Below are positions 2,376 to 54,756 of a stretch of DNA of 64,000 bases, piece by piece; within the stretch, counting starts at the first letter, position 1, and each line of letters begins with the position of its first letter. A program made the position numbers and the translations under genes. The DNA comes from a virus. The stretch spans positions 147,114-211,113 of IMG/VR virus record IMGVR_UViG_3300043446_004613; one strand, given 5' to 3'. Under the pieces are notes generated by a model. It was given only the letters and a program-made list of their open reading frames with translations. It was not told where the DNA came from and did not search any database.

Positions 2376-3449
2376 GTGAACGTACCGAATTGGAAAGGTA
2401 ACACGCTGAACACGCAGGCCGGTGCCTTGGCTGGCACCAGTATGCGTTATCATGAACTGGCGCTCCAACAGTGGCTGAACACAGTGTTCAAACTGCGCTG
2501 GGGCGTGCCGGTGCCTGTTGTATTCTCTACACCGATGGACGCGTTCAGCGCGTTCAACAAGCTCTGGGCCGAAAACGACAACGTGTTCAAATACCTGTTG
2601 GACGTAAAAGACGAGGAAGGCCGACCGGTGTATCAGCCGTATCCACAGCCGGTGCGCTACCCGATCATAAGTGTATACAGAAAAGGCTGGAAGCTGCGTC
2701 AGTCGCATAACTTCTCGATTCACCGGATGCGCTACATCAACTGGCCCACGGTCAGCAGCACCGGCTCAAGTGTATACGGGCGACCCGATCAAGGTGATAA
2801 CCTTACCCAGTGCAACATGGGTCACGTGACAACGAGCCGTTTTCCGATGGCTTTCGATTACCGTTTCCAGATCGATCATTTTTGTAACCGCCCGGATACG
2901 CAGGCATTTTATATTTCGCAGCTGTTCCGCGAATTTTGGCGTACAGGAGGCCCGACGATGCAGACATGGATCGTCGTGAATTATCCCGGTTTAGGCTCAA
3001 AGCTTGTTCGACTTTATGTCGACGGTGAAATCCAGAACATGACGCCGGAAGAACCGGAAGATGGCAAGAGCGTTGAATTTCGCACCAGTTTCACCGTCGT
3101 GCTGGAAGGTTACGATATTGACCTCGATTATCAGATTTATCCGACGCTATGGAAACTGGTGCTGCGCAGCGGAAGCGTTGATCCGGCGGCACTGACTGAC
3201 GCGTTTAACGCACTAACCATAGACATGCGCGAACAGCCGGATAATAGCGTCGTAAACTATCGCAGCAAGATGGGTGCGATGCCACCTGAAGGCGATTGCC
3301 CGCAAAAACTGCGTGACGCTCGCTTGGAGCGCGAGCAGGTACAGGTTACCGTGCTTGAAGCATTACAGGTTACAACGCAAGGGCCTTCCGGTTATCCGCC
3401 AGCAGCCGGAGTTACCGCTTTCGGTACTGCTTCACTAGCTTCAGTGTAA
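2376..3449 (+). CDS. Virion structural protein upstream of tail sheath
   Basis: 357 residues from a GTG start, with GTAATTA five bases upstream. The protein is Tyr/Trp/Pro-rich with alternating hydrophobic residues, as in beta-structured tail proteins. It has a conserved-looking core (HFCNRPDTQAFYISQLFREFW; VNYPGLGSKLVRLYVDGEI; TSFTVVLEGYDIDLDYQIY). The C-terminal 60 residues are a charged helix and a Pro/Gly/Ala-rich tail. It sits between a terminator and the sheath gene. A tail-completion or sheath-terminator role is plausible from position alone; no family was recognised. Confidence 0.5.
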   Translation: MNVPNWKGNTLNTQAGALAGTSMRYHELALQQWLNTVFKLRWGVPVPVVFSTPMDAFSAFNKLWAENDNVFKYLLDVKDEEGRPVYQPYPQPVRYPIISVYRKGWKLRQSHNFSIHRMRYINWPTVSSTGSSVYGRPDQGDNLTQCNMGHVTTSRFPMAFDYRFQIDHFCNRPDTQAFYISQLFREFWRTGGPTMQTWIVVNYPGLGSKLVRLYVDGEIQNMTPEEPEDGKSVEFRTSFTVVLEGYDIDLDYQIYPTLWKLVLRSGSVDPAALTDAFNALTIDMREQPDNSVVNYRSKMGAMPPEGDCPQKLRDARLEREQVQVTVLEALQVTTQGPSGYPPAAGVTAFGTASLASV

Positions 3450-3557
3450 ACACCCGCGAGTACGTGGCGTTGCGTTAAGTGCGCTGAATGATACTGGTAG
3501 TTAAAAGTGTGAGCGCGGTTTTAATAGATTAGCGCGTAGTTAAGACAGCAAAAGATT

Positions 3558-5855
3558 ATGACGATTACACCAAAAACCTTTCCGGGGGTTTACACGACTA
3601 TTGTCGACAAATCCTTTTTTACTCCGGCGACCAGCCGCTTCAAACCCGGTTTGCTCGGTGTCGCCTCAAAAGGGCCGTTTGACGTGCCAACCCCGGTGCA
3701 GTCACTCAAGGACTTTGTCAACGCGTTTGGCCGTCCGATCACGACGACCTACTCGACGGACGCGACCAGCCGCATCACGACCCCAGACGGTAACGGCTAC
3801 TTTCTCGCTGACGCCGTGGACGCGATCACGGATTACACCGACGCGATCACGATCGTGCGCATCGGTAACCGCTACACGGAACTTCAACCTTCCGACGCAA
3901 TTTCCGGTGCAAACAACTACACGGTGTACAGCCCGTCAAACGCACCTCGGATTCAGCAGCTGATCGTGGATAACGACGGCCCGGTATATCTGCGTCTTAC
4001 GCAGCCCGGCCTCCACTCGACAGTCAATGTTCTGGCTATCTCAGCCACAGGTACAACCATTGCGCTTGACCCGAGCAGCGACGGTATGGCTGACGCCTAC
4101 GGCCCCAATGCGACGATCTCGTACAGTCTTACGGACAAGGCAGCCAATAAAGCGGAAGGCGTTCTCTACGCTTACACCTACGGCACCGATGCAACTGACT
4201 ATGCAGACGCGCTATTCACGTCTGTCGGTTCCATCTCTGGCAACAAGAATCAGTTCCAGTTCTACTGCGCATCTGATGCGGACAACATTGCTGTCGGTGA
4301 TGTTTTCAAGATCAAGGAAACGAACAAAGACACGTCGTACGAAGTGCGTGTTCGCGGTTTGCTCATTGACTACCTGAACAACAACGCTGGTACGGTCTAT
4401 CTTGAAAAGACGGACATGCCGCAGATCGGCTATCAAGCGCTGCCGTTGCAAGACAACTACTCCAATGCCCAGCTGTACAAGCCCACCGGCAAGCTTCCGG
4501 CTCTTCGCCTCAAGGCGACCACGGAAGGCACATGGGCCAACGGCGCAAATTCCTCGCAAGGTCTTTACCTGCGCGTACGCCCCGGTTCTGACGGCGGTAC
4601 CAAGAAGCTTGAAGTCTACTGGGATTCAGCGCTTGTTGAAACCCACGACAATATCACAGACGATCCGGCTGATACCGTCAATTTCTGGGAAGCCCGCTTG
4701 GCCAAAGGCAAGAGCCAGTTCGTTTACCTCGACGAAGATGCAGGCGTTACCGACTTGATTACCGGAGATTGGACTTGCGCCAACACGGTTCATCCGTGGG
4801 ATGCCCGTTTCTTCGGCACTACCGCAACTCCCGGCCTGCCGGTTCCGATGCCGCTCGGTGCAACCAACGCCGGTATCTTGAACGTCGCAGTGAATACCAT
4901 CGAAGACACTGGCGGTCAGTTTATCAATGGTTACAACGGCGAAAATCCGAACGATTCCGACTGGATTGGTACGCTCGACCCGACGACAGACACCATGACC
5001 GGTATCCGTGCTTTTGAAGACACCGACACGGTTGAAATCAACTATCTCGCCGCGCCGATGGACAACATCAGCTTTGCGGTGATGGAACAGATGGGCCGTA
5101 CCTGCGCCAAGGTCAATGCGATGGCCGTTTGCGACGTGCCTGCTCAGTACAACGCTCGCGAAGCGATTGACTGGCACAATGGCAAGCTGCCGACTCAGGA
5201 CGGTACCCGGATCGACAACCGCAACGTTGCGGTCTATTGGAATTGGTTCATGCGCACCAATAGCTGGGCTGAAACAAAGTTTGTGCCTCCGACGGTTGGA
5301 TTGCTGGCACGTACCGGCTACACCTTCAACGCGGACAAGCCGTGGTATGCTGTCGCTGGCGAAACTCGCGGCTATCTCCAGATGGCTGAAAAGGTCGCGT
5401 TTGACCGCGTGTCTGATGACACCAAGCAGGCGATGTACGGTAACGGCAACAGCATTAACCCGATCCTCAAGATCAAGGGCAACCACTACCTGTACGGTGA
5501 ACGCACAATGCAACGTGCCGAAAGCAAGCTTACGGCAGTTCATAACGTTGTTCTCGTGAACTGGGTTGTAACCGGTATGGCGAACGTCGCCCGCCGCTTC
5601 GTGTTTGATCCGAACGACGCTGAATTGCTGATCCAGCTGAAGCTGGCGTTCACCGAGTTCCTTGACCGCATCGCTAACGATCGCGGCATCGAACAGTACA
5701 ATCTGGTCATGGATGATCGGAATAACACGGCTGAGACTCGCAATAACCGCGAAGTTTTAGTCGACTTGGAGATTATTCCGACCGACGTGGCGGAACGTAT
5801 CTACATCAACGCGACTGTTCGCGAAAGCGGCGCAGTCCTGAACCGTTTAGTCTAA
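3558..5855 (+). CDS. Contractile tail sheath protein (gp18-like)
   Basis: 765 residues. The N-terminus has the typical sheath opening (PGVYTTIVDKSFFTP, then GLLGVASKGPFDVPTPV...F...FG). The C-terminus has the conserved T4 gp18-type domain: FTEFLDRIANDRGIEQYNLV, then RNNREVLVDLEIIPTDVAERI with a final beta strand, which forms the arm exchanged between neighbouring subunits. The middle (about residues 150-480) is a long variable surface domain; the total is longer than T4 gp18 (659) and similar to jumbo-phage sheaths. Two GTAGTTAA sequences lie in the 108-base leader. The tail tube gene follows after four bases. Confidence 0.95.
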   Translation: MTITPKTFPGVYTTIVDKSFFTPATSRFKPGLLGVASKGPFDVPTPVQSLKDFVNAFGRPITTTYSTDATSRITTPDGNGYFLADAVDAITDYTDAITIVRIGNRYTELQPSDAISGANNYTVYSPSNAPRIQQLIVDNDGPVYLRLTQPGLHSTVNVLAISATGTTIALDPSSDGMADAYGPNATISYSLTDKAANKAEGVLYAYTYGTDATDYADALFTSVGSISGNKNQFQFYCASDADNIAVGDVFKIKETNKDTSYEVRVRGLLIDYLNNNAGTVYLEKTDMPQIGYQALPLQDNYSNAQLYKPTGKLPALRLKATTEGTWANGANSSQGLYLRVRPGSDGGTKKLEVYWDSALVETHDNITDDPADTVNFWEARLAKGKSQFVYLDEDAGVTDLITGDWTCANTVHPWDARFFGTTATPGLPVPMPLGATNAGILNVAVNTIEDTGGQFINGYNGENPNDSDWIGTLDPTTDTMTGIRAFEDTDTVEINYLAAPMDNISFAVMEQMGRTCAKVNAMAVCDVPAQYNAREAIDWHNGKLPTQDGTRIDNRNVAVYWNWFMRTNSWAETKFVPPTVGLLARTGYTFNADKPWYAVAGETRGYLQMAEKVAFDRVSDDTKQAMYGNGNSINPILKIKGNHYLYGERTMQRAESKLTAVHNVVLVNWVVTGMANVARRFVFDPNDAELLIQLKLAFTEFLDRIANDRGIEQYNLVMDDRNNTAETRNNREVLVDLEIIPTDVAERIYINATVRESGAVLNRLV

Positions 5856-5859
5856 TCTT

Positions 5860-6501
5860 ATGTCAAAGATGAACTTCAACAATACGTTCGGCGCTATTTC
5901 AGACGCCAACGCTATTGACCTGCAACGCAGCGACCTGTGGAAAGTGGACATTGTCTTGCCACAGGTGCTGAACGCGAACTGGAACGACAACGTGCAGTTC
6001 TTGCTCGAAAAGTTTCCGTTCCCGACCCGCGAACGCGAAATGATCGAGGTCAAGTACATGCAGCAGACCAACTTCATTATCGGGAAGGACACTCCGACAA
6101 ACGCCATCGAAATTCCCGTCCGCTACGCTTTCGGTGTCAAAGTCGTCGAAGCGCTCGAAAAATGGAATTGGCTCGTTGCCAACCCGATCACAGGTGGTAT
6201 CGGTCTGACCTCGCAATGCAAAGCCAAAGGCAGCATGCGCTGGGTTGTACCGAACATGCAGAACCAAGTGAACGCCCTGAGCAACAACGTTGCTGCCGGG
6301 GAGAACACGATGGACGACGGCTTGGTTTACAACCTTGAGGGCTGCATCATCAAAGGACTCAAATACTCAGATGCTGACATGACGCAGAGCGGTTATGTGA
6401 ACATCATGTTCAATCTCCAGATCGATCGCTACTATCCGGCTGGCAAGTCTCGCAACGGCGCTCTGGATGACACAATCGTCAATCCTGTTGTTGCGCGGTG
6501 A
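5860..6501 (+). CDS. Tail tube protein (gp19-like)
   Basis: 213 residues. It shows the T4 gp19 tube pattern: an N-terminal strand (DLWKVDIVL), a loop around FPFPTREREMIEVKYMQQTNF, then IEIPVRYAFGVKVVEALEKWNW and a C-terminal strand pair (LEGCIIKGLKYSDADMTQSG; VNIMFNLQIDRYYP). It polymerises into the inner tube surrounded by sheath. It lies four bases after the sheath gene, the usual order. No good Shine-Dalgarno sequence is present before the ATG. The following gene starts with a GTG that overlaps its stop. Confidence 0.92.
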   Translation: MSKMNFNNTFGAISDANAIDLQRSDLWKVDIVLPQVLNANWNDNVQFLLEKFPFPTREREMIEVKYMQQTNFIIGKDTPTNAIEIPVRYAFGVKVVEALEKWNWLVANPITGGIGLTSQCKAKGSMRWVVPNMQNQVNALSNNVAAGENTMDDGLVYNLEGCIIKGLKYSDADMTQSGYVNIMFNLQIDRYYPAGKSRNGALDDTIVNPVVAR

Positions 6502-6899
6502 AAATTGACGTATACAGCGAAGCGGTACTTCGGGTGCTCCCCGAAGTACCTGATCTCCCTCTGGAGGCACCGCCTGCGGAGGGCTTCGATCTTGTCGATG
6601 TCTGCATCTGTCCGGCCTGCGGCGGCCAAGACGCCGCTGTGAAGAAAGTGGAGGATGCGGAAGTTGCTAAATGCCCACAGTGCCAGTGTGAATTCTCGCC
6701 ACGCTTGGAAGCTGTATCGGCGCAAGTCATTCGCCGTATTGGTGAGCACCGTGCCCGGCGCATGAGCCGCTTCCTTGAGTCATTGCCGTTGAATCCACCG
6801 CCGGGTGTAAATCCAAAAGATTACTCACTTTTCCGTAAAATCGTCGATACTGAGCCTTTGGCTGTTGAAAACCCTGAATCCGAACTTGAAAATGAATAA
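6498..6899 (+). CDS. Zinc-ribbon protein downstream of tail tube
   Basis: 133 residues from a GTG overlapping the tube stop (GTGA). Residues 36-62 form a four-cysteine zinc ribbon (CICPACGGQ and CPQCQCEFSP), followed by an Arg-rich helix (AQVIRRIGEHRARRMSRF) and a Pro-rich acidic tail. In many contractile phages the gene after the tube is a tail assembly chaperone or scaffold; a zinc ribbon is also seen in T4-type baseplate assembly chaperones. The role here is inferred from position. The C-terminus overlaps the next gene by eight bases in another frame. Confidence 0.6.
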   Translation: MKIDVYSEAVLRVLPEVPDLPLEAPPAEGFDLVDVCICPACGGQDAAVKKVEDAEVAKCPQCQCEFSPRLEAVSAQVIRRIGEHRARRMSRFLESLPLNPPPGVNPKDYSLFRKIVDTEPLAVENPESELENE

Positions 6900-7668
6900 A
6901 CTTATCGAAGCTGCTGTTGTTGAACCGCAGTACAGCAAAACAGAGCGTGAATTTGATCCTCGTCATCTCATGAGCAAGCTAGATGCTATACATCGCCGCT
7001 TTGTAGATGAGCGCGTAGCTGGCTTTACGACTCCTGAAGGTGTCACTCACCCACCCTGTTCACGTGAAGAGGCTGAAGCTCGTTGGGCTAAAGCGGAGCA
7101 GGCCTTTATGAACGCGCTTTCAGGAAACGTTGCACCTGAGCACCGTGAAAACAGTAAAAGTTTGCAGCATAAGCTGGGACTTACCCGGCCTAAGTTAACA
7201 GGCGCGATTTACCGCGATGATCCAACCGTTCCAGACACGGAACCAGAAACTGACTGGGAAAGCTACGAAAAATCGTGGCATAAGCAGGAAAGTAACGTGA
7301 GCGCTGTCGTGCGTACGCTTGTAACCGAAGCGATCGATATGCCTACGCCCGAGTGGGAAATAGATAAACATTTTTTTGATCAGGCACTGCACAGTATCCG
7401 CAGCCGCTTTGTAGATGAGCGCGTATCTGGTTTTATGACGCCTGACGGTGTCAAACATCCGCCGGTTTCGCGTGAAGAGGCGGAAGCTCGTTGGGCTAAA
7501 GCAGAGAATGTTTTCAAAAAAGCGCTTATGAATCCATCGCCAAAAGCGGCGAAAAGCTTGAAACTTGGACGTAAACTCAGCCCGTACGAGCGCGGCATGC
7601 GCGATGAGCCTTCGCTACGTCGCGGCGAGTCAAAATCCAGTTCTATCGTGCGGAAGATGATTTCTTGA
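6892..7668 (+). CDS. Hypothetical protein with an internal tandem domain duplication
   Basis: 258 residues starting at MNKLIEAAVV (an ATG nine codons upstream is also in frame). Two copies of a roughly 42-residue module are visible, near residues 33-76 and 164-207: RFVDERVAGFTTPEGVTHPP / RFVDERVSGFMTPDGVKHPP, each followed by SREEAEARWAKAE. The modules are about 75% identical, so the duplication is either recent or constrained. Linkers are charged and likely disordered. The start LIEAA is echoed by SLLEAE at 47050-48360. No family recognised. Its place after the tube suggests a tail or injected protein. Confidence 0.65.
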   Translation: MNKLIEAAVVEPQYSKTEREFDPRHLMSKLDAIHRRFVDERVAGFTTPEGVTHPPCSREEAEARWAKAEQAFMNALSGNVAPEHRENSKSLQHKLGLTRPKLTGAIYRDDPTVPDTEPETDWESYEKSWHKQESNVSAVVRTLVTEAIDMPTPEWEIDKHFFDQALHSIRSRFVDERVSGFMTPDGVKHPPVSREEAEARWAKAENVFKKALMNPSPKAAKSLKLGRKLSPYERGMRDEPSLRRGESKSSSIVRKMIS

Positions 7669-7670
7669 AC

Positions 7671-8207
7671 ATGAAGCGTCCTGAAGGATTACTAACCATC
7701 AGCGGCATCAAGGATGCCGAAGGTAAACCGCTGTCTACACAGCAAGCGGTTGACTATGGTTGGATCACGCCTTCTGCCGGAAACTTTGCTGGCTGGGGTC
7801 TTGCACGCCACGAAGTGCCTTTGGGTAAAAACCTCTTTGTGGATCAAGGGCGTCAACTCGTCGCCTACGCTTTTGGTTTCCGCAGCCCTATCTCTGACTA
7901 CACGGTTCAGAAGTTTGGAGTTGGCACTGGAACTACACCGGCCAAAGTTACCGATGTTGCCCTTCAAGCGCCGATCACGCTAAGCAATAGCTCTACGCTC
8001 AAAAACATCGATTCCGTCGATTTCCTAGCACCATTTGTTGTGCGGGTGTCTTTCACGCTAGGAAACGACGACGCCAACGGTTACATCATCAGCGAGATGG
8101 GCCTGTTCAGCGGCGGCAGTGCGCTGATTGCGCGTAAAGTCCGCAGCGTAAGCATCAACAAAACTTCCGACTACTCTCCGACATTGACGTGGCGCATCCG
8201 GTTCTAA
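7671..8207 (+). CDS. Virion structural (tail appendage) protein
   Basis: 178 residues; ATG chosen at 7671, three bases after the preceding stop (a TTG two codons earlier is possible). The middle and end are typical of small phage tail proteins: KFGVGTGTTPAKVTD, then YIISEMGLFSGGSALIARKV and a final beta strand (SPTLTWRIRF). The repeated 'vGtGttpa...l..pi' and 'sEmGLf.g...liaRkv' pattern is shared by baseplate or fibre-attachment proteins of several large myoviruses. It ends the first tail block; glycan genes follow. Confidence 0.6.
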   Translation: MKRPEGLLTISGIKDAEGKPLSTQQAVDYGWITPSAGNFAGWGLARHEVPLGKNLFVDQGRQLVAYAFGFRSPISDYTVQKFGVGTGTTPAKVTDVALQAPITLSNSSTLKNIDSVDFLAPFVVRVSFTLGNDDANGYIISEMGLFSGGSALIARKVRSVSINKTSDYSPTLTWRIRF

Positions 8208-34930: not shown

Positions 34931-35255
34931 TGAACTGAAGGTAGCTGGGAAAAGTACAGTCAGGAAAAAGGTCATCCACTGAAATTTTAAGCTGTTCCGC
35001 TATGCGGTTCATCGCTTCATCGTCTTTACCTTCACGGTGTAAGCGAACAAGTTCCAGATCAAAAGCTGCCAGCGCCTGCCAATCGTAGCTGCTGCGCTCC
35101 TCAGCCCTCATGACCAATGTTCCTTGGGTGTGGTGATAAGCTGCAACCAATATCGGCCATTCCCGAAGCACATAAGCAAAAACCCGGCGCATATCGTCTT
35201 TTTCGTCCTGCGTCCACGCGTGAACGTTTTTAACATGCGCACAGATTGTGTTCAT
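34863..35255 (-). CDS. Hypothetical protein
   Basis: 130 residues. Helical and charged: WTQDEKDDMRRVFAYVLREW, YDWQALAAFDLELVRLHREG, AMNRIAEQLKISVDDLFP, FPSYLQFIKERTERQ. No family recognised. Its start is inside the stop of the 379-residue gene upstream (ATGA), so it belongs to the minus-strand structural operon. The last 22 codons lie antisense to the end of the collagen-like fibre gene. It may be an assembly chaperone for the preceding structural proteins; this is only inference from position. Confidence 0.55.
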   Translation of the reverse strand: MNTICAHVKNVHAWTQDEKDDMRRVFAYVLREWPILVAAYHHTQGTLVMRAEERSSYDWQALAAFDLELVRLHREGKDDEAMNRIAEQLKISVDDLFPDCTFPSYLQFIKERTERQKSGMTLEARPVTAP

Positions 35256-36391
35256 ATCGGAGGCCCCGGCGGATAGTAATAGTTGTCAGAGTAGACCGGA
35301 TCATTCGCCAGTGTGATACGCGAAGCCGATTGATTCGTATCAGGGCCGGAAAATATCCAGCTGCCATCCTCGTCGTTACAACGGAAATAGCACCAATTTG
35401 TATACGTTGATCCAGCCGCGTTCGTAAACTTACCCCGCACCAAAGCTCCGGGTTGACCACTGTTATTGCCTGAAGCTGTCCTGATAACAAGTTCGTACGG
35501 GTATTCCGCAGTTCCGACCATCTTCGAGTGTGTATTAACCCAGCTTACTTGAGCCGGTACAGCGGTAAATCCTGTGCTGTATACAAGAGATACCCATTCG
35601 CCTGAGCCTAAAAGCGGATCAGTTGGGCCGGTAGGCACGTAGCTGTTGAGTTGCCATTCAAAAATGTACGGAAGGGTACCGCCAGCAGGCAAATTAACGT
35701 AGAAGTAACCAAACTGGGTATCATCACGCCCCATCGAGCAGTAGTTGCAGTTAGTTCCGATCAAAGTCGTTATCCCCGGAAAAGCCGGACGTACCGGCTG
35801 TAGCGGGCCGCCCAGTCTGCGACTGCATGGAAGCAAAAGCTCAACGCCGTCTACGATGATACGCGCAAGGTAATCCGCAACCCGATGGCCTGCGCTATCG
35901 ACCGTGACCTGTGGGATCACTTGGTACAAGCCGCCGCTGTGTGTTTCCCAGTGTGCTTCCTGCGTGTGCGGCAGCAGCACCTGCGTATTCGTATTGATCA
36001 AGTCTTGCTCGTCTTGTGGTGTGAAGTCGGTGACCCACGCAGTACCTCCGGGCGCGGTGGTAATCGTCGGCGTGTTGAGCGTGCGGCTTATGCCTGTCTC
36101 GGGGTCTTTACCCGGAAGTGACGTGGCTTCAATCGGAACAAAGTAGTTGATGCGGTTGTAGTTCAGCACCATGTAGTAGCGACCAACGCGATCACCGTGG
36201 CTGTCCAGATACATGCTTACGTCGTTACCGGCGGCATCGTAGTAGGGCACCGGCAGGTAGCGCAAGTTGATGCCGTGCGCTTTAGACAGCGAAGCGTTAG
36301 CGTGCTTGAACAAGTTGTTTACAAGCTCAGTCTGTGCCGCTTTTATCTGCTCAAGTCGCGCACGGGTAACGAGATTTTGTTGTGAAGCCAT
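35252..36391 (-). CDS. Virion structural protein
   Basis: 379 residues. An N-terminal helix (ARLEQIKAAQTELVNNLFKH) is followed by a mostly beta protein rich in Tyr, Gly and Pro: RYLPVPYYDAAGNDVSMY, SHGDRVGRYYMVLNYNRINY, YFVNLPAGGTLPYIFEWQ, and a C-terminal DNYYYPPGPPI. A CNYCS pair is near residue 216. Likely a baseplate or fibre attachment protein; no family recognised. Three bases after the intein-bearing gene, with one transcript expected. Confidence 0.55.
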   Translation of the reverse strand: MASQQNLVTRARLEQIKAAQTELVNNLFKHANASLSKAHGINLRYLPVPYYDAAGNDVSMYLDSHGDRVGRYYMVLNYNRINYFVPIEATSLPGKDPETGISRTLNTPTITTAPGGTAWVTDFTPQDEQDLINTNTQVLLPHTQEAHWETHSGGLYQVIPQVTVDSAGHRVADYLARIIVDGVELLLPCSRRLGGPLQPVRPAFPGITTLIGTNCNYCSMGRDDTQFGYFYVNLPAGGTLPYIFEWQLNSYVPTGPTDPLLGSGEWVSLVYSTGFTAVPAQVSWVNTHSKMVGTAEYPYELVIRTASGNNSGQPGALVRGKFTNAAGSTYTNWCYFRCNDEDGSWIFSGPDTNQSASRITLANDPVYSDNYYYPPGPPI

Positions 36392-36394
36392 AGG

Positions 36395-37525
36395 TTATCC
36401 AAGGGGCGGCAGAATCACGTTAGTTCCGGCGCTGCTTATACTGGCAGGCCCGGATATGTGGGCCAGCCCGTACATCGCGAAATTGAAGAATCCTTTCCAG
36501 AAACTGTTATGTGCCACGTAGCCATTGACCACGTACACGTCGGTAGGTTCAACATCCAGATTGTAGGTTTCAACATGTCCGCGCACGTATGACATGCGAT
36601 CGATCGTTACCGACATCCCATCTTTCCAGAGAAGGTCGCCAACAACCAAGTCCTGAACCTGACGAAAAGCCCAGATGCCAGAGCGACAGGTAAGCAGCGG
36701 ATGTTCGTAAGTAACACGAAGGTCGAGCAACTGAAAGTAACCGGTGAACTGCTGATGCAGGACGCGCTTGACCGTTGATGGTGACGCACGCATCACCAGT
36801 TCCTTAGCCGACCACGTTTTCCACGCGTCCTCGTTATCTGGATTTAGGCCGTTGATCTTGTATGACATGACCTTGTCGCCGACTTTGACATCGCAGATGA
36901 GCTTTTGCGTGCCATCAGCCATTGTAACCGGCGTGTCTGGCAAAAAGCAGCCGTCTTTGTGGTATCTGAAACCTGAACTGATCGGCGATACCGTCAAATG
37001 CGCGGAACTGCTGACCGTTGTTCCGTAGCTGTTCGATACGACTACATCGTAATTTCCACTGTTCGCTGTAGTGCAATACGGTATGAGGTAAGCGGCTGTA
37101 TTTCCGTTAGCTACGTTTGTGCCGTTGAAACGCCACTGATAGCTCATTTCCACCGGGCTGATAGCTTTAACCACAAACTCTGCCGGATCAGTTGTATACA
37201 CAGATAGCGGCTCCGGTTGGCGCACAATGTACGGCGTGCTTCCAACCTCGTAGGCTGTCGAACCGGATATGATTGCAGGCAGTGTAAAGGCAGCATCGCC
37301 GGTACCGTCTACGTTGGTACCTGTCAGCTGCACCCGCAGCAGAAAAGCGCCGTTTATGGTATGACCCGTGTCGTGCTCAGCGAAAGTTGTGCCGTAAAAG
37401 CGCACTTGATTATGAGCGCCCCAGTCCCCAGATGCGTGGGCGGCGGCGGAGTTCTCGTAACCGGTAACGGCTTGATAAACGGCAGCTTCGCTGGCAGACG
37501 TCAGTATGTTTACGTTCTGCCGCAT
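36395..37525 (-). CDS. Ig-domain virion protein interrupted by a mini-intein (Hint domain)
   Basis: 376 residues. Residues about 100-180 form an Ig-like domain (YQWRFNGTNVANGNTAAYL; NSGNYDVVVSNSYGTTV). Residues 193-340 form a complete Hint fold: start Cys193 (GCFLPDTPVTMADG), block A KVGDKVMSY, block B TYEH (Thr272...His275), LVVGDLLWKDGMSV, then VEPTDVYVVNGYVAHN and Ser341. These are the residues required for protein splicing: N-terminal Cys, TxxH, His-Asn, then Ser. There is no homing endonuclease domain. Splicing would give a 228-residue protein ending in a hydrophobic tail (FWKGFFNFAMYGLAHI). Confidence 0.8.
   Translation of the reverse strand: MRQNVNILTSASEAAVYQAVTGYENSAAAHASGDWGAHNQVRFYGTTFAEHDTGHTINGAFLLRVQLTGTNVDGTGDAAFTLPAIISGSTAYEVGSTPYIVRQPEPLSVYTTDPAEFVVKAISPVEMSYQWRFNGTNVANGNTAAYLIPYCTTANSGNYDVVVSNSYGTTVSSSAHLTVSPISSGFRYHKDGCFLPDTPVTMADGTQKLICDVKVGDKVMSYKINGLNPDNEDAWKTWSAKELVMRASPSTVKRVLHQQFTGYFQLLDLRVTYEHPLLTCRSGIWAFRQVQDLVVGDLLWKDGMSVTIDRMSYVRGHVETYNLDVEPTDVYVVNGYVAHNSFWKGFFNFAMYGLAHISGPASISSAGTNVILPPLG
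36506..36949 (-). mobile_element. Mini-intein / Hint coding segment
   Basis: This is the coding part for residues 193-340 of the protein above (148 residues). The end residues (Cys1, C-terminal His-Asn, +1 Ser) match a splicing-competent intein; bacterial-intein-like (BIL) domains share the fold and may only cleave. No endonuclease is inserted, so it cannot move by homing on its own. Confidence 0.7.
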
Positions 37526-37532
37526 GTTTTAA

Positions 37533-37991
37533 TTATTCGCGTGGCGGCTCAGGCAAAGCAATCTCTTCTTCGCCAGCACCTTCAGGTGAAGCCAGTTGTT
37601 CGGCTGTTTCTGCCTCGCTGGGTTCTTCGCCGGGTTCAGGCAGACCAGCTTCTGGGCCGCCTTCGACCGGAGCTTCCATGCTCTCAGGCTCTTGTGTCGG
37701 CACCTCTTGCGCGTCTTCTGGCGCACCGGCATCTGGCGGCGCATTAGGCGGGAGCGGGATAGCCATATCGCTTTCCGCATCACCTTCGCCCTCACCTTCA
37801 CCCTTGCCTTCATCCTCCTCTTCGCCGGGGCCGGGCACGCGTTCCATGTACCACTGCCATTCCGCGTTGAGTTCGTCGGCAACAGGATCACTGTGGTTAT
37901 TGGCCAGCGCTGCTGCGATCGCCTCGATTTGACCCCAGCTAAGTTCTAACTTATAATCGTTATAAGTTTTTTTAATCTTTTCGAGTTTCAT
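37533..37991 (-). CDS. Acidic Pro/Glu-rich protein
   Basis: 152 residues. A lysine-rich N-terminal helix (KLEKIKKTYNDYKLELSW), then a conserved-looking segment (QIEAIAAALANNHSDPVADE; NAEWQWYMERVPGPGEE), and from residue 55 a low-complexity tail of Glu, Gly, Pro and Ala, including a GEG repeat. Strongly acidic and disordered. It could be a scaffold or a DNA-mimic, but the sequence gives no proof. Its start overlaps the 3' end of an HNH endonuclease remnant. Confidence 0.55.
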   Translation of the reverse strand: MKLEKIKKTYNDYKLELSWGQIEAIAAALANNHSDPVADELNAEWQWYMERVPGPGEEEDEGKGEGEGEGDAESDMAIPLPPNAPPDAGAPEDAQEVPTQEPESMEAPVEGGPEAGLPEPGEEPSEAETAEQLASPEGAGEEEIALPEPPRE

Positions 37992-48372: not shown

Positions 48373-51300
48373 ATGAGCATCGGCAATCTCAAAGAGCAGT
48401 TTCTGTACGATCTCCTGCCTGACGCTGTCGTCAGTCAGGATGATCGCGGGTACATCGAAGCAGTCGTTTCCGGCGTGCAAGACCGCTTGGAAGACGTGCG
48501 CTCTTATGCCAAGAAGCTGGACTTGTTCTGGCAGCCCGGTGCGCTTCCAACCGGGAGTTACAATGTCATTCTGGTCGATCTCGTCAGCGAACAGGGTAAA
48601 GCGTATACGCGCAGTCTGGACATCCAGACGGATACACCTGCTCCGGGCAGCAGCCAGCTTCCACTGTGGGCAGCTTTTCAACTGAACATCCCGGTCGAAG
48701 CATTAGGCGCGGTGCGTTACGGATACGATGCGTTGCGTGCTGTAGACGTTAACACTTTGGCGTGGCTGGCCCAGACACTGGGAGCGATCCTGTATGATAC
48801 CGACATGCTTGAGGGCAATGCGGTAAACGCCGCTCAAGTCCAACTGGTGTCTACGTGGTTCCCGCGCCTCAAGATCAAAGGCACCAATCAAAGCTTTGAA
48901 GTGCTCGGTAAGATTCTCGGCTTTGACGACATCCGCATGACCCCGCTGTGGTCACGCCTTAATCCGCACGTCCCGGACGATGTCGGCAACAGCGCCAATG
49001 CAACCGATTACGCCGCCGAGCCGGAATACGCGCCGCAGCAAGTTATCGGCCCTTACTACGATCCGTTCGTTTATCGTGACGGCCCTTTTTACAGCTGGAG
49101 CACTACGGTTAACAACGGCACGAACAGCACCGAATTTTACACGGAAAGCGTCAACGGTAAGAATCCTTGGATTCGCGTTGCACTGCTCGGTTCACTGGCA
49201 GGCACGAACGTACCATCGATTCAGAACGGGACAGTTACTCATCCAGCGACTGGCTCATACGCACTGGCCAACGGTAATTCACTGGCCCGCGCATACGTTG
49301 ATCCGCTCGGCAGCAGCGTTCGTTTTCAGGCGGTCGCCGACGGTGCTTCCTTCAACGGCATCTATGTCCACGTTACTACCGTGGGTACGCTGGCGACGAT
49401 TGCCATCGAAGACCGACTGTCGGCAATCAAGTACCGCAGCAGTTACTTCGATCTCGGCCTCACCGCTGACATGGACAAGGTGGAGGAAATCTTTGGAAGC
49501 CGGGCGGCGACGACCAATAAAGACCTCAAAGCCAATCCGAACCTGACCCCGGATGGAACGGCGGAGAGTCCATACCGGCCTTGGGTATCCGGCAGCATCG
49601 CTGTTGCCGAGACGACGACAGACTGGGTGACTTCAAACGGCGACATCACCTACACGGTTGTTGCTCGTCAGCAAGCTGATCCAGCGGTCGGTGACCGCCA
49701 GCTGAACACGGATTCACTGGTCGTTGCCGGTGTGCAGGTCACGCAAGCCTTGGAAGAGGTACGTGCAGCTACCCGCCTACCCCGGCGTAGCCAGACCGGT
49801 TTCTTGGTGAATGACAGCGCTTGCTATGCGCCGTACGCTGTAAACGGCACGTTGTTTACAGAACCGACAGCAGTCGCCGCCTCAAGCGGAACCTGCGCTG
49901 ATGCGCCGTTGGGTTCGTATGTGGCTGCTCTGACGGCAGTCATTCCCAATGTAACGGAGATCAAGTGGGTCGCTGAAGCAAACGTTCAGTACGTCCTGAC
50001 CGCTTATTTCATATCGCCGCCCGCACCAAACGTCGTGCTTGGAACAGTCACAGCGCAGAACGCAGGAACGTACGCTTTTTACACCGATACCAGCCCATCC
50101 GCCGCTTTCTCCATCGAACCGTCTCCGGTCTATGCGTTCCCGGTGCAATCGAACACGGCAACGCTGCCTTTGACCGCTGAGGTTAATCCGGCAAACTACG
50201 ACGAATACATCTACGCGATAAAGTCGGATACGAACATAACCTGCACCGGTTCGTTTAATTTCGCGACTGGGCAGTACGGCTTCAGCCACAGCAACATTGC
50301 AGATTTTACGGTGTTGACGGCATGGACGCTGGTGAGCACAGGTACGATTCGGCCTGAGCCTTATGAAAGTGTTCTGGTTTGTGAAACAGGCACGTTTTAC
50401 ACCGATAGCACGTTAGGCCCGACGAACACAAATCCGACTGCGCCGTGGCCGGATACAGGCATATTTTTTCAACAAGGCGAACTGATCTCGATAACGACGG
50501 TCGGTTCTGTTTCACCAACGCCCGGTTATTGGATCGGGCCGGAAGGCTACAACTGGGCACCTGACCGGCTGGACAATCGGTTCAAGCACGAAGCTTTGCT
50601 TGGTCGCGTCGGGCTATCGGGCAGCATCTTTTTGGTCGGCTCGCTCTATTCCGGCGCGGCGACAGACACCGGAAGCCTTTACCTAGTCACGAATGACGTA
50701 TCACGCGCCAACAACGAAGGCTCGTTTACATCGTACATTACCGTCTGTTCCGAAGAAGAACAACGGGCGGCGGAAGCGTGCTTGTGTCGTCCCGAAGACG
50801 AAGATGACGGGCTGATTTACGAGGTTGCTGATGATTTTCCGTGGAACCGTGAAGTCACGGTCGGCGGTGAACTGGTTGAGTTGGACATCTACCGCACAGG
50901 CACGGACATCGCTGTTCAAGAGCTAGAGGAGGCAACAGCTTTCAACGACCAGACCGGTGTCGACATAAATGTCTACGCGCTGACCAGTCCCAACACATCG
51001 GTACCTCGTCTGACCTACGAACCGCGTTCAATCGCTAAAGGCGTATACAGTCCGGCCTACACCGCCATCGGCTATCAAGGCACACTCAAGGACTTGTCTA
51101 CGCTAACATCAGCGGAAACAGACTTCATACGTCCTCCGATCGGTTCCAGCTTTGGCGATACAGAGACGGACTATGACGTGCTCTTTCAGCCCGGATACAG
51201 TCTGTACCACGTTGGCCTCGCTCAAGGCGTTTTGGTTGCGGACTTGGTTAAATTTTTCGGCCCTCAGCACAGCGTGGGCTTGGTCGGTTGGTTCGCATTT

Positions 51301-54300
51301 AATGAGCACGTAGACGCAGCGCTTTCTGTAGTCGACCACAGCTTCCGGGCTACGCCGACAGACTTGATCGGTGTTAATAGCGCAGACCGCCATTTTGACT
51401 CTGTTCGTGGATGGTGCCTGACGTTGAATGACAGTCAGGTGATTGCCGATGAATACCGTGATTTGGTAGACGAAGTGACGGCGGCGTTCTGGATCAAGCG
51501 CACGGCGACTGCACTCTACCCGTCAACGGAAACTACGATTGTCGACTGTTCACTGGTCTATTTCACGCTAAGCCCCGGCGGTGCCGTGACTGGCTACGCC
51601 AAAAAGGACAACGGTGTAGGCACTGCCCTTGGCAGCGTAGTGATTGCAGACGGCGAATGGCACTTCATTTACATCCGGCGCAGCGAACACAATGCAGTGT
51701 TCGGTGATGCAACGTTGTCTACCAGTGCTGTGGAAATCAACGTAGCTGGTTCATACCTTGCCGGTGATCCCGATATTGATACGCTGGTAAATGTGCAAGC
51801 TGCCAATGGCGCTGCATTTACGATCCACGATCTGCGCATCTGGAACGTGACCAAGACAGCAGCGGAAATGGACTTGATCCGTTACCATAATCCGACACCG
51901 ACGCTCTGCACTTACCGCCTTGGGTTCATCTATACGCTGGATCGAAAGGACAAATACGGTATCAAGATTCTACCGTCCGGTTGGGCTTACCCGAATGTAT
52001 TGCCTGCGTGGTATCGTCGCACGCGCCAAGGTCTGGTGTTGCGCTACGATAGCATGGGTTCCTACCACGGCGACAGCCGTTTCAAGGAAGTCGGTATCGG
52101 CGACTGTCGTCCGTTGCCGGACACTTATACGCTGGGTGCTCAGTTCACGTGTATGACTGGTGAAGGCACGACGCCGTACAGCACTGACAGCGGACAGTTG
52201 CCCGGTTGGTCTGCTAAGTGGCAGTCCCAGAACAATTCAGGCAACTACCTGAAATTAAACTTCAGCGGCAGCACGGCTAACGGTATTCCAGCGGTCACTG
52301 TTTCAAGCGGTACCGCAACGCCGTGGCCGAACACGATGACGCAGACTAATCCGTTCCGTGAGTACGTGTACGTGCTTACCACGAACGGGCAGCATGTATA
52401 CCAGATGGCTTTGAATGGTGATGCCGCATCAACATGGTTGGAGGCGGTTTTCGTGGGTACAGTAGGAAATGAAGAAGCCACCGGGGCTTATACACGGCTC
52501 AGCAAGAACGGCGTAGGCATGCTTTTCGCCGACCCGACCACAATGCGCGGCGTTATCTCAGCCGCGAATCCGTGGCCGACGCTTGGTATGTTCACAACGC
52601 CGCCGCTGTACATGTATCTGACCAGCCGCAGCAAGCAGACAGTGGGAGATGCTCACGACACATGGGTCGACAAGACACCTACAGGCAGTCCGCCCGTAGT
52701 GACGCCCGAGGATAATGCCGTCGATTGGCAGCCCATGCCAAGCATCGTGCGTATCGACTCGTACGGAACATCTTTGTATACGCCTGCACTCGGCAAAGCG
52801 GGCGTGCTTGAGTTTACAGGTAGCAACTACCTCGCTACAGGCAACTACGAGCTAACGATTGTTAGTGCGCAAGTAGGTCAAGCGGATGAAGACTTTGACG
52901 GATTCGCTGTCGGCATCAATGTGAACGACACGGTTATCCAGCGCCGCCTGCTGCGCGGTAAGAGCGGCTACAATTTTAGCGGCACGGATACGTTTCAGTT
53001 TTATCTGGACGACGAAGTGAGCGGGAATTATCTGATCAGTTTCGATTGGACGAACCCATTGACAGATACGGCAAAAGGAACCAAGCGCCAGCTGGCGATC
53101 CTTGGTTACACACTCCGCCACATCAATACTGAGATTTTTAAGGTTGAGGCGCTGAGCGTTGGGTCACCCACATTTACGCAGCTTTCTACCGACATCAGTT
53201 CTATTGGTACGACACCCGGCGGCTGGTTTGCAGCAATCAATAGCTATGGTACTGCGGTAGGCTACCAGCACGAATCGACAATCTATACGTCGAACGAAAA
53301 TACAGCGGCAATATATCCCGTTGGAGATACGCTCTCTCCGCTGACAAACGAACGTCGCGACGACATCATTTATACCGGAACGAATGTCGTCGTTGCCGAT
53401 ACCGGTACAATCACGATGCCGAACTTTACGGCGGCAGGCACGGCTCCGCAGGACGCTCCGGCTTGGGTTTGGGCAGGTGCCTTGACCAGTAATCCATCGT
53501 TCACAGTGACAGTCAAAACGACCGGTCAAACGACACTTCGCTTAGCGGTAAGCGAGTCGAGCACTTTTAGCGATAGTTCGATGACCGACATGGTGGCCTC
53601 GGGTGCCGACAATTACACCAAGATCAAAGTTGATGGGTTGAAGCCGTGGACAACCTACTATTACGCTGTCGAGACAGGCGGAAGCATCCATTATGAGATG
53701 GCAGGTACCGTTGCAACATCCGGTACAGGTGCCCAGAGCTTTAAGTTTGCGGTGGTCGCTTGCGAGAACAATACCAGTTTAAGCACGGTATCCAACGCGG
53801 CTTGGGGATTTATTCACACGCAGAATCCGATGTTTGTAATGCACGTTGGGGATTTCCATTACTACAACATCAACGTAAACGATCCATCTTTTTACCGGAC
53901 AGCGTTCAACAACGTGCTATCGGAAAGCAAACACAAAGCGTTCTACCGGCAACATGGCGTCATGTACATGTGGGATGATCACGATTACGGCCCGAATGAC
54001 GGCAGTAGCGCAAACGTATCACGCCCGGCAGCCCGTTCGGCCTACCGGCAAGTGGTACCGCATCTGCCTTTGGCAGCGGGCGATGGTAACCAGCCGATTT
54101 ATTACGCGTTTACTGTAGGGCGCTGTCGCTTCATCGTCACTGATTGCCGATCGGAACGTACGCCAGTAACGGTGGCTGATAACAACAACAAGACCGTACT
54201 AGGCGCGGCGCAAAAAGCTTGGTTCAAGCAGGAACTGCTGGCGGCTAGTTCAAGTGGAGACATTGCAGCGATCTTCTGGGTCAATTCCTTCCCGTGGACA

Positions 54301-54756
54301 GGCGTTGCCCATCCCGAAGCGAATCCGAGCGTGGAGAACTGGGCAGCCTATCCGACTGAACGTAAAGAGATCGCAGATTACATTTACAGCAAGGCCATCC
54401 GCAAAGTGTTCATTCTCTCGGGCGACATGCACGCCACGGCTTTTGACGATGGTCGAACCTACGATTTTCACGCAAACGGTACGAATTCCGTAGCCCCTAA
54501 TGGACACGGACTACCGGTATTTCAGTGCGGTCAGCTATACAACTCGAATAGCCAAAAGGGAACGCCATACCAAATCGGCCCGTTCTATACAGGCTCAGGC
54601 ACGCGTTCTATCTTTGGCATGGTTCAGGTGGACGACTACGGAAGTTACATGCTCATCACTTTCACCGCCCGCAGCGGAGCCAGCGGAGCAATCGTGAACG
54701 TGGGCGGTATCTACGTTACGGCAACACTTAACTCAGCAGAATCACCCAGACCATGA
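48373..54756 (+). CDS. Giant tail protein: gpI-like N-terminus, LamG-type module, PhoD-type phosphatase
   Basis: 2127 residues, GTAGTTA nine bases before the ATG. N-terminal 215 residues resemble P2 gpI-type baseplate proteins (TLAWLAQTLGAILYDTDMLE; FEVLGKILGFDDIRMTPLWS). A concanavalin/LamG-type module is near 970-1180 (VGWFAFNEHVDAALSVVDHS; GEWHFIYIRRSEHN; FTIHDLRIWNVTKTAAEMDL). A fibronectin-type domain (about 1690-1785) precedes a PhoD-like metallophosphatase: VACEN, HVGDFHYYN (1822), MWDDHDYGPND (1866), ILSGDMHATAF (2016). PhoD enzymes hydrolyse phosphodiesters, so the tail could cut a surface polymer. The next gene overlaps by four bases. Confidence 0.8.
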   Translation: MSIGNLKEQFLYDLLPDAVVSQDDRGYIEAVVSGVQDRLEDVRSYAKKLDLFWQPGALPTGSYNVILVDLVSEQGKAYTRSLDIQTDTPAPGSSQLPLWAAFQLNIPVEALGAVRYGYDALRAVDVNTLAWLAQTLGAILYDTDMLEGNAVNAAQVQLVSTWFPRLKIKGTNQSFEVLGKILGFDDIRMTPLWSRLNPHVPDDVGNSANATDYAAEPEYAPQQVIGPYYDPFVYRDGPFYSWSTTVNNGTNSTEFYTESVNGKNPWIRVALLGSLAGTNVPSIQNGTVTHPATGSYALANGNSLARAYVDPLGSSVRFQAVADGASFNGIYVHVTTVGTLATIAIEDRLSAIKYRSSYFDLGLTADMDKVEEIFGSRAATTNKDLKANPNLTPDGTAESPYRPWVSGSIAVAETTTDWVTSNGDITYTVVARQQADPAVGDRQLNTDSLVVAGVQVTQALEEVRAATRLPRRSQTGFLVNDSACYAPYAVNGTLFTEPTAVAASSGTCADAPLGSYVAALTAVIPNVTEIKWVAEANVQYVLTAYFISPPAPNVVLGTVTAQNAGTYAFYTDTSPSAAFSIEPSPVYAFPVQSNTATLPLTAEVNPANYDEYIYAIKSDTNITCTGSFNFATGQYGFSHSNIADFTVLTAWTLVSTGTIRPEPYESVLVCETGTFYTDSTLGPTNTNPTAPWPDTGIFFQQGELISITTVGSVSPTPGYWIGPEGYNWAPDRLDNRFKHEALLGRVGLSGSIFLVGSLYSGAATDTGSLYLVTNDVSRANNEGSFTSYITVCSEEEQRAAEACLCRPEDEDDGLIYEVADDFPWNREVTVGGELVELDIYRTGTDIAVQELEEATAFNDQTGVDINVYALTSPNTSVPRLTYEPRSIAKGVYSPAYTAIGYQGTLKDLSTLTSAETDFIRPPIGSSFGDTETDYDVLFQPGYSLYHVGLAQGVLVADLVKFFGPQHSVGLVGWFAFNEHVDAALSVVDHSFRATPTDLIGVNSADRHFDSVRGWCLTLNDSQVIADEYRDLVDEVTAAFWIKRTATALYPSTETTIVDCSLVYFTLSPGGAVTGYAKKDNGVGTALGSVVIADGEWHFIYIRRSEHNAVFGDATLSTSAVEINVAGSYLAGDPDIDTLVNVQAANGAAFTIHDLRIWNVTKTAAEMDLIRYHNPTPTLCTYRLGFIYTLDRKDKYGIKILPSGWAYPNVLPAWYRRTRQGLVLRYDSMGSYHGDSRFKEVGIGDCRPLPDTYTLGAQFTCMTGEGTTPYSTDSGQLPGWSAKWQSQNNSGNYLKLNFSGSTANGIPAVTVSSGTATPWPNTMTQTNPFREYVYVLTTNGQHVYQMALNGDAASTWLEAVFVGTVGNEEATGAYTRLSKNGVGMLFADPTTMRGVISAANPWPTLGMFTTPPLYMYLTSRSKQTVGDAHDTWVDKTPTGSPPVVTPEDNAVDWQPMPSIVRIDSYGTSLYTPALGKAGVLEFTGSNYLATGNYELTIVSAQVGQADEDFDGFAVGINVNDTVIQRRLLRGKSGYNFSGTDTFQFYLDDEVSGNYLISFDWTNPLTDTAKGTKRQLAILGYTLRHINTEIFKVEALSVGSPTFTQLSTDISSIGTTPGGWFAAINSYGTAVGYQHESTIYTSNENTAAIYPVGDTLSPLTNERRDDIIYTGTNVVVADTGTITMPNFTAAGTAPQDAPAWVWAGALTSNPSFTVTVKTTGQTTLRLAVSESSTFSDSSMTDMVASGADNYTKIKVDGLKPWTTYYYAVETGGSIHYEMAGTVATSGTGAQSFKFAVVACENNTSLSTVSNAAWGFIHTQNPMFVMHVGDFHYYNINVNDPSFYRTAFNNVLSESKHKAFYRQHGVMYMWDDHDYGPNDGSSANVSRPAARSAYRQVVPHLPLAAGDGNQPIYYAFTVGRCRFIVTDCRSERTPVTVADNNNKTVLGAAQKAWFKQELLAASSSGDIAAIFWVNSFPWTGVAHPEANPSVENWAAYPTERKEIADYIYSKAIRKVFILSGDMHATAFDDGRTYDFHANGTNSVAPNGHGLPVFQCGQLYNSNSQKGTPYQIGPFYTGSGTRSIFGMVQVDDYGSYMLITFTARSGASGAIVNVGGIYVTATLNSAESPRP

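Follow-up and report, generated by a model that had tools for sequence, protein, structure and literature searches.

The window analyzed here is a 64,000-nt stretch of viral DNA (IMG/VR record IMGVR_UViG_3300043446_004613, positions 147,114 to 211,113). It contains an ATG-initiated ORF of 376 aa, extending from 37525 to 36395 with its stop codon, that encodes an Ig domain followed by a Hint (intein/BIL-like) domain (Table 1); the strand, left out of a preliminary description of this locus, is the minus strand. The gene sits in a four-gene minus-strand group and is the only member with a convincing family match, since the adjacent 379-, 152-, and 130-aa genes matched no Pfam or PHROG family above chance. 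Plus-strand structural genes and a glycosyltransferase flank the group, and Pfam and PHROG matches identify a T4-type portal, gp25, and a collagen-like fiber among the plus-strand neighbors. Promoter and terminator scans around the gene gave signals no higher than those of shuffled sequence. Elsewhere in the window, a 2127-aa ORF (48373–54756, + strand) carries a C-terminal hydrolase/phosphodiesterase-like match (PHROGs 13624 and 24476).

Table 1. Features of the Ig-Hint gene and its neighbors (window coordinates)
Feature	Position	Strand	Basis
Ig-Hint protein, 376 aa, complete ORF	36398..37525; stop 36395–36397	−	ORF and orthologues L003, L091
N-terminal part, residues 1–93	37247..37525	−	Kept in all three orthologues; pLDDT <50
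Ig domain, residues ~94–183	36977..37246	−	Pfam I-set/Ig_3, PHROG Hoc-like/tail, model, PDB Ig matches
Linker, residues 184–192	36950..36976	−	Variable among orthologues; low pLDDT
Hint (intein/BIL-like) domain, Cys193–Asn340	36506..36949	−	Pfam, PHROG, profile, AlphaFold2 model
Cys193, predicted N-terminal nucleophile (block A)	36947..36949	−	28/28 representatives; outside search patterns
TYEH, residues 272–275 (block B TxxH)	36701..36712	−	T and H in 28/28
Asp329, block-F position	36539..36541	−	His at this position in 2lwy and the helicase intein
His339-Asn340 (block G), predicted Asn-cyclization site	36506..36511	−	28/28
C-terminal tail, residues 341–376, first residue Ser341	36398..36505	−	Not conserved
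Downstream 379-aa gene	35255..36391	−	Same minus-strand group, order conserved, no family match
Upstream acidic 152-aa gene	37536..37991	−	Order conserved, no family match

Translation of the ORF places Cys193, the TxxH at 272–275, and His339-Asn340-Ser341 exactly where the preliminary description had put them. The 148-residue length that it gave for a Hint fold without an endonuclease (Cys193 to Asn340) is likewise correct. AlphaFold2 predicted this fold with a pLDDT of >90 for residues ~190–345, and no endonuclease domain was matched in the protein by Pfam or PHROG. Its Ig domain is also borne out by Pfam, by Hoc-like and tail PHROG families, and by a separate model that has solved Ig domains as matches. 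The low-confidence models yielded no fold for the C-terminal tail or for residues 1–93, the latter modeled at a pLDDT below 50 from only three sequences. The linker before Cys193 is Gly/Ser-rich in orthologue L091, and 36 residues follow Asn340, which together with the first 192 would make 228.

Pfam Hint models gave several weak matches at the start of the domain and over its whole length (best E-value of 4e-5, below the gathering threshold), while PHROG 38766, named "virion structural protein," matched residues 191–341 with an E-value of 8.5e-8. When seven phage Hint domains were combined into a profile and compared with PDB, the first match was the Clostridium thermocellum BIL domain (2lwy; E-value of 1.6e-12). 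Together with the AlphaFold2 model and the VIA structure comparison, these matches amount to more than a chance resemblance, and with the fold, the block A Cys, and the block B TxxH all present, the domain belongs to the HINT superfamily. VIA Z scores ranged from 14 to 20 over the 50 Hint entries listed, with a maximum of 20.3. Among these listed matches, the first three were BIL domains (6y75, Z = 20.3; 6tmm, 19.3; 2lwy, 18.4), with DnaB mini-inteins at 18.2–18.4 (Ssp DnaB, 18.4) and Hedgehog (1at0) at 17.3. The ranking of BILs over inteins in this model comparison is suggestive and not decisive, as the inteins lie at most ~2 Z units away.

Two further viral contigs, L003 (56%) and L091 (48%), carry the window gene in an identical gene order and retain Cys1, TYEH, and Ala-His-Asn. 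However, the residue following Asn340 (+1) is Ser in the window, Asn in L003, and Pro in L091, and the tail after Asn340 comprises 36, 24, and 7 aa, respectively, with 29% identity over the aligned positions. Because Ser occupies the +1 position only in the window and the tails are dissimilar, neither the class-1 Ser nor the piece that splicing would add has been maintained. The term "complete mini-intein" in the preliminary description is therefore only partly supported: it fits the residues of the window protein, where the full class-1 set is present, but not the orthologues, in which the +1 residue is not conserved. No version of the window protein lacking the Hint domain came up in searches with the Ig and N-terminal part, which returned only weak matches (best E-value of 6e-3) to Hoc-like, whisker, and tail Ig proteins; a search of the window's own virus record found no second Hint domain. 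In L091, a free-standing gene resembling HNH-type homing endonucleases (L091:532-1044, − strand; sequence only) adjoins the window-type gene group, and the counterparts of the window's downstream 379-aa and 130-aa genes apparently form one fused ORF (L091:2265-3887).

We scanned viral contigs with two patterns, one containing TxxH and the other Asp-x-Tyr, and obtained 157 relatives, 80 of which were taken into the analysis. Cys1, the Thr and His of TxxH, Tyr331, His339, and Asn340 proved invariant in all 28 representatives (mean pairwise identity of 31%), although the TxxH and Asp-x-Tyr positions are partly ascertained because the scan patterns contain them, unlike Cys1 and His-Asn. The latter were present in 52 of 52 non-redundant phage Hint domains, so the situation that the preliminary description had considered damaging, homologues without the terminal residues, applies only by half: these residues and TxxH persist throughout, and the +1 nucleophile does not. 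Specifically, the +1 residue was Lys in 32 of the 52 domains, Val in six, Thr in three, and Ala, Ile, or Pro in two each, with single cases of Ser, Asn, Gly, Met, and Cys. Cys, Ser, or Thr thus occupied this position in 5/52 domains (4/51 without a helicase intein), compared with a 21% share of these residues in the proteins, counts that come from related, non-independent sequences and are not a probability. A +1 nucleophile is accordingly absent from 47 of the 52 family members and from both orthologues, and present in the window. The helicase of Vibrio phage 13VV501A (L007:2161-4662) has two intein-like inserts, the second of which has a +1 Cys and the block-F His, unlike the virion-protein family, and is a true helicase intein. 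Asp329 was considered as a family hallmark and downgraded, since one search pattern contains the Asp and this position is His in the Afa-NA1 homologue. The 28 Hint domains together formed too divergent an alignment to be used for scanning genomes; the narrower A1 scan returned a single match, in a bacterial MAG.

In the tree, 31 phage Hint domains form a sister clade (L038, L089, L052, L034, L076, L032, L090, and relatives) with an invariant Lys right after the scissile Asn, typically as HNKG. The distance from the Hint end to the stop codon is 4–18 residues in many architectures and ~100–250 residues in most of the Lys clade, whose C-terminal parts span 4 to 250 residues across architectures. 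Two different Hint genes lie close together in four contigs (L025:3158-4495 and 5659-6711; L034:3216-4358 and 6435-8027; L052:746-1804 and 3002-4507; L076:930-1991 and 2984-4516), where one protein of each pair ends in HNVH(D/A/G)K and the other has HNKG(T/S)(N/D).

A Hint-free protein was found among relatives with a different N-terminal part, outside the window's own orthologues. The 324-aa gp096 of Dickeya phage JA11 (L092:2440-3414) is an orthologue of the Alexandravirus tail protein and ends in RITARNPK, at the linker before Cys1 and without a C-terminal piece, whereas its Hint-bearing relatives run on from ARNP through a linker to Cys. Judging from these sequences, Hint cutting at Cys1 would yield a product close to the JA11 protein. 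The Hint dN/dS in the Alexandravirus group was ~0.02–0.16 where dS was finite, as low as in the rest of the protein; these values are rough because dS was often saturated, and they indicate that the Hint domain there is under purifying selection.

Since the cutting residues are kept and the +1 nucleophile is not, trimming or activation is likelier than splicing. From sequence and model, we consider it fairly probable that the window gene encodes a phage particle protein whose Ig domain is followed by a C-terminal Hint domain for autoprocessing, of the type-A BIL kind, which would give the protein a trimmed or activated C terminus. Cys193, aided by Thr272 and His275, would turn the Gly192-Cys193 peptide bond into a thioester, and His339-Asn340 would cut after Asn340; the Hint domain and the short tail would then leave a ~192-residue Ig protein, through either thioester hydrolysis or capture by an amine. 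With Ser at +1, the window protein may in addition undergo some ordinary splicing to the 228-aa form. The conserved part of this activity, the Gly192-Cys193 thioester and Asn340 cleavage, is probably type-A BIL-like: type-A BILs have His-Asn without a +1 nucleophile, form a thioester at the N junction, cleave through Asn cyclization, and give predominantly cleavage products (PMC4031507). Two features of the window domain count against this reading, namely the Ser at +1, with which all class-1 splicing residues are present, and the replacement of the block-F His by Asp, which may affect Asn cyclization; a third point is that the JA11 comparison comes from outside the window's own orthologues. 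The side remark in the preliminary description that the role may be BIL-like finds support, as does its picture of an intein-like Hint without an endonuclease in a probable virion protein.

It is unlikely that the domain is an ordinary class-1 mini-intein, in which Cys193 and Ser341 would splice residues 1–192 to 341–376 and produce a mature protein of 228 aa. Every class-1 residue is present in the window, the model also matches mini-inteins such as Ssp DnaB well, and BILs splice efficiently once their +1 residue is made a nucleophile (PMC4031507, PMC7664689). However, Ser341 is replaced even in the closest orthologues, the tail to be joined varies in length and sequence, no allele with both Hint flanks directly joined was found among the relatives searched, and the Hint-less JA11 protein has no C-terminal piece. 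The 228-residue spliced product anticipated in the preliminary description does not hold up as a conserved outcome, given that the tails differ and the family +1 residue is mostly Lys, Val, Ile, or Ala.

The fate of the thioester allows for a sub-case of the favored explanation, conjugation, in which an amine, supplied by a different virion protein or by a further copy of the Ig protein, would attack the Cys193 thioester, leaving the Ig C terminus covalently attached. BIL2, from the BUBL1 locus of Tetrahymena, heads the structural matches listed; it belongs to a eukaryotic ubiquitin-like fusion and attaches a ubiquitin-like protein to lysines through isopeptides (PMC8616854), and by this analogy amine capture of the thioester is a serious alternative to its hydrolysis. 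The case is strongest in the 31-domain clade, where the invariant HNKG suggests a similar Lys conjugation and the Lys next to Asn is a possible acceptor for isopeptide formation; several phages also encode a pair of different Hint proteins in closely spaced genes. For the window protein, conjugation nevertheless has a low probability, as its acceptor is only putative, the Lys is missing from the window clade, structural likeness proves no function, and inteins score close to BIL2. A broader proposal, that several phage lineages use BIL-like Hints as built-in ligases covalently joining virion proteins, is quite doubtful. A Cys1 thioester at the C-terminal end of a tail or Ig protein would be captured by an amine, which in the HNKG clade would be the Lys adjoining the Asn at the cleavage site, with the window protein as a member with a putative acceptor; if true, virions would contain ATP-free isopeptide crosslinks or C-terminal conjugates. 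Finally, it is very unlikely that the Hint domain is a folded remnant that undergoes no processing and has only a structural or interaction role in the full-length virion protein. Hint activity is a prediction, the block-F His is replaced, and C-cleavage would free almost nothing in several relatives with only 4–10 residues after Asn; however, dN/dS is low, and without catalysis it is difficult to see why Cys1, Thr, His, and His-Asn should all be invariant at ~31% identity.

Compared with known systems, the window domain shares with the type-A BIL 2lwy the Hint fold, TxxH, the C-terminal His-Asn, the missing endonuclease, and a variable non-enzyme host. It differs from BILs, which lack a +1 nucleophile, in having Ser341, in the block-F Asp for His, and in its location in a phage particle protein. 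Since Ser341 is present, the window protein is not a BIL by the strict definition, while its family appears to behave like one. BIL2 of BUBL1 (6y75 and 6tmm) scored highest among the matches listed, with 24% identity, yet its Lys isopeptide activity belongs to a eukaryotic fusion, whereas the phage Hint is known from sequence and a model. Class-1 mini-inteins (Ssp and Npu DnaB, gp41-1) share the fold and four catalytic positions with the window protein, including the +1 nucleophile (Ser341) and the C-terminal His-Asn, but here the host is not a conserved enzyme and neither the +1 residue nor the C-extein is conserved. Homologous Hints at the C-terminal end of tail or virion proteins occur in the Alexandravirus group (Y3, Alexandra, and AD1), in NCTB, and in PHROG 38766; the N-terminal parts in the Alexandravirus group and NCTB are collagen-like or large and unrelated to that of the window, their +1 residue is Thr, Val, or Ala, and their tail has 7–10 residues. 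Hedgehog, which attaches itself to cholesterol, also has its Hint at the C terminus, and this Hint activates the preceding part of the protein in thioester form. In contrast to Hedgehog, the phage domain keeps the block G His-Asn, which is invariant, and only a variable tail of 36 aa follows the window Hint, leaving no room for sterol recognition.

Inteins are usually regarded as parasitic elements in enzymes for replication and packaging. The Hint domain described here recurs at the C-terminal end of unrelated phage tail, fiber, and Ig proteins with its catalytic residues conserved and the splicing nucleophile lost, a pattern suggesting that virion assembly includes a domesticated step of maturation or attachment, and one that would make phage Hints a supply of new domains for cleavage or conjugation. 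Its presence in tail or virion genes is not unprecedented and was already known as an annotation: the member in the record of Erwinia phage Y3 is called "putative phage tail protein, contains intein domain," and the tail protein of phage NCTB is likewise annotated "intein domain." The paper on AD1, the "hairy" phage, contains neither the term "mass spectrometry" nor the term "intein." In the portions of the literature available to us, which concern terminase and ribonucleotide-reductase inteins, we found no paper describing a role of Hint domains in phage tails.

The preliminary description had spoken of a virion protein in a structural operon, terms that were deduced rather than observed. Judging from PHROG names and the gene neighborhood, the window protein is likely part of the virion or tail, a role that is likely because of tail and structural gene settings and the tail-protein names in the records. 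The hosts of the Hint domain vary, from the Ig protein of the window to collagen-like tail proteins in the Alexandravirus group, very large NCTB proteins, and LCCL and lectin-like proteins. In L038 and L089, the Hint gene lies directly before the tail sheath gene, and in L038 it also follows tail-fiber or baseplate genes. At L097:512-4609, a collagen-like protein of 1366 aa carries a C-terminal Hint domain with Val at +1; this contig was assigned to a Rickettsiales MAG and is possibly a phage contig.
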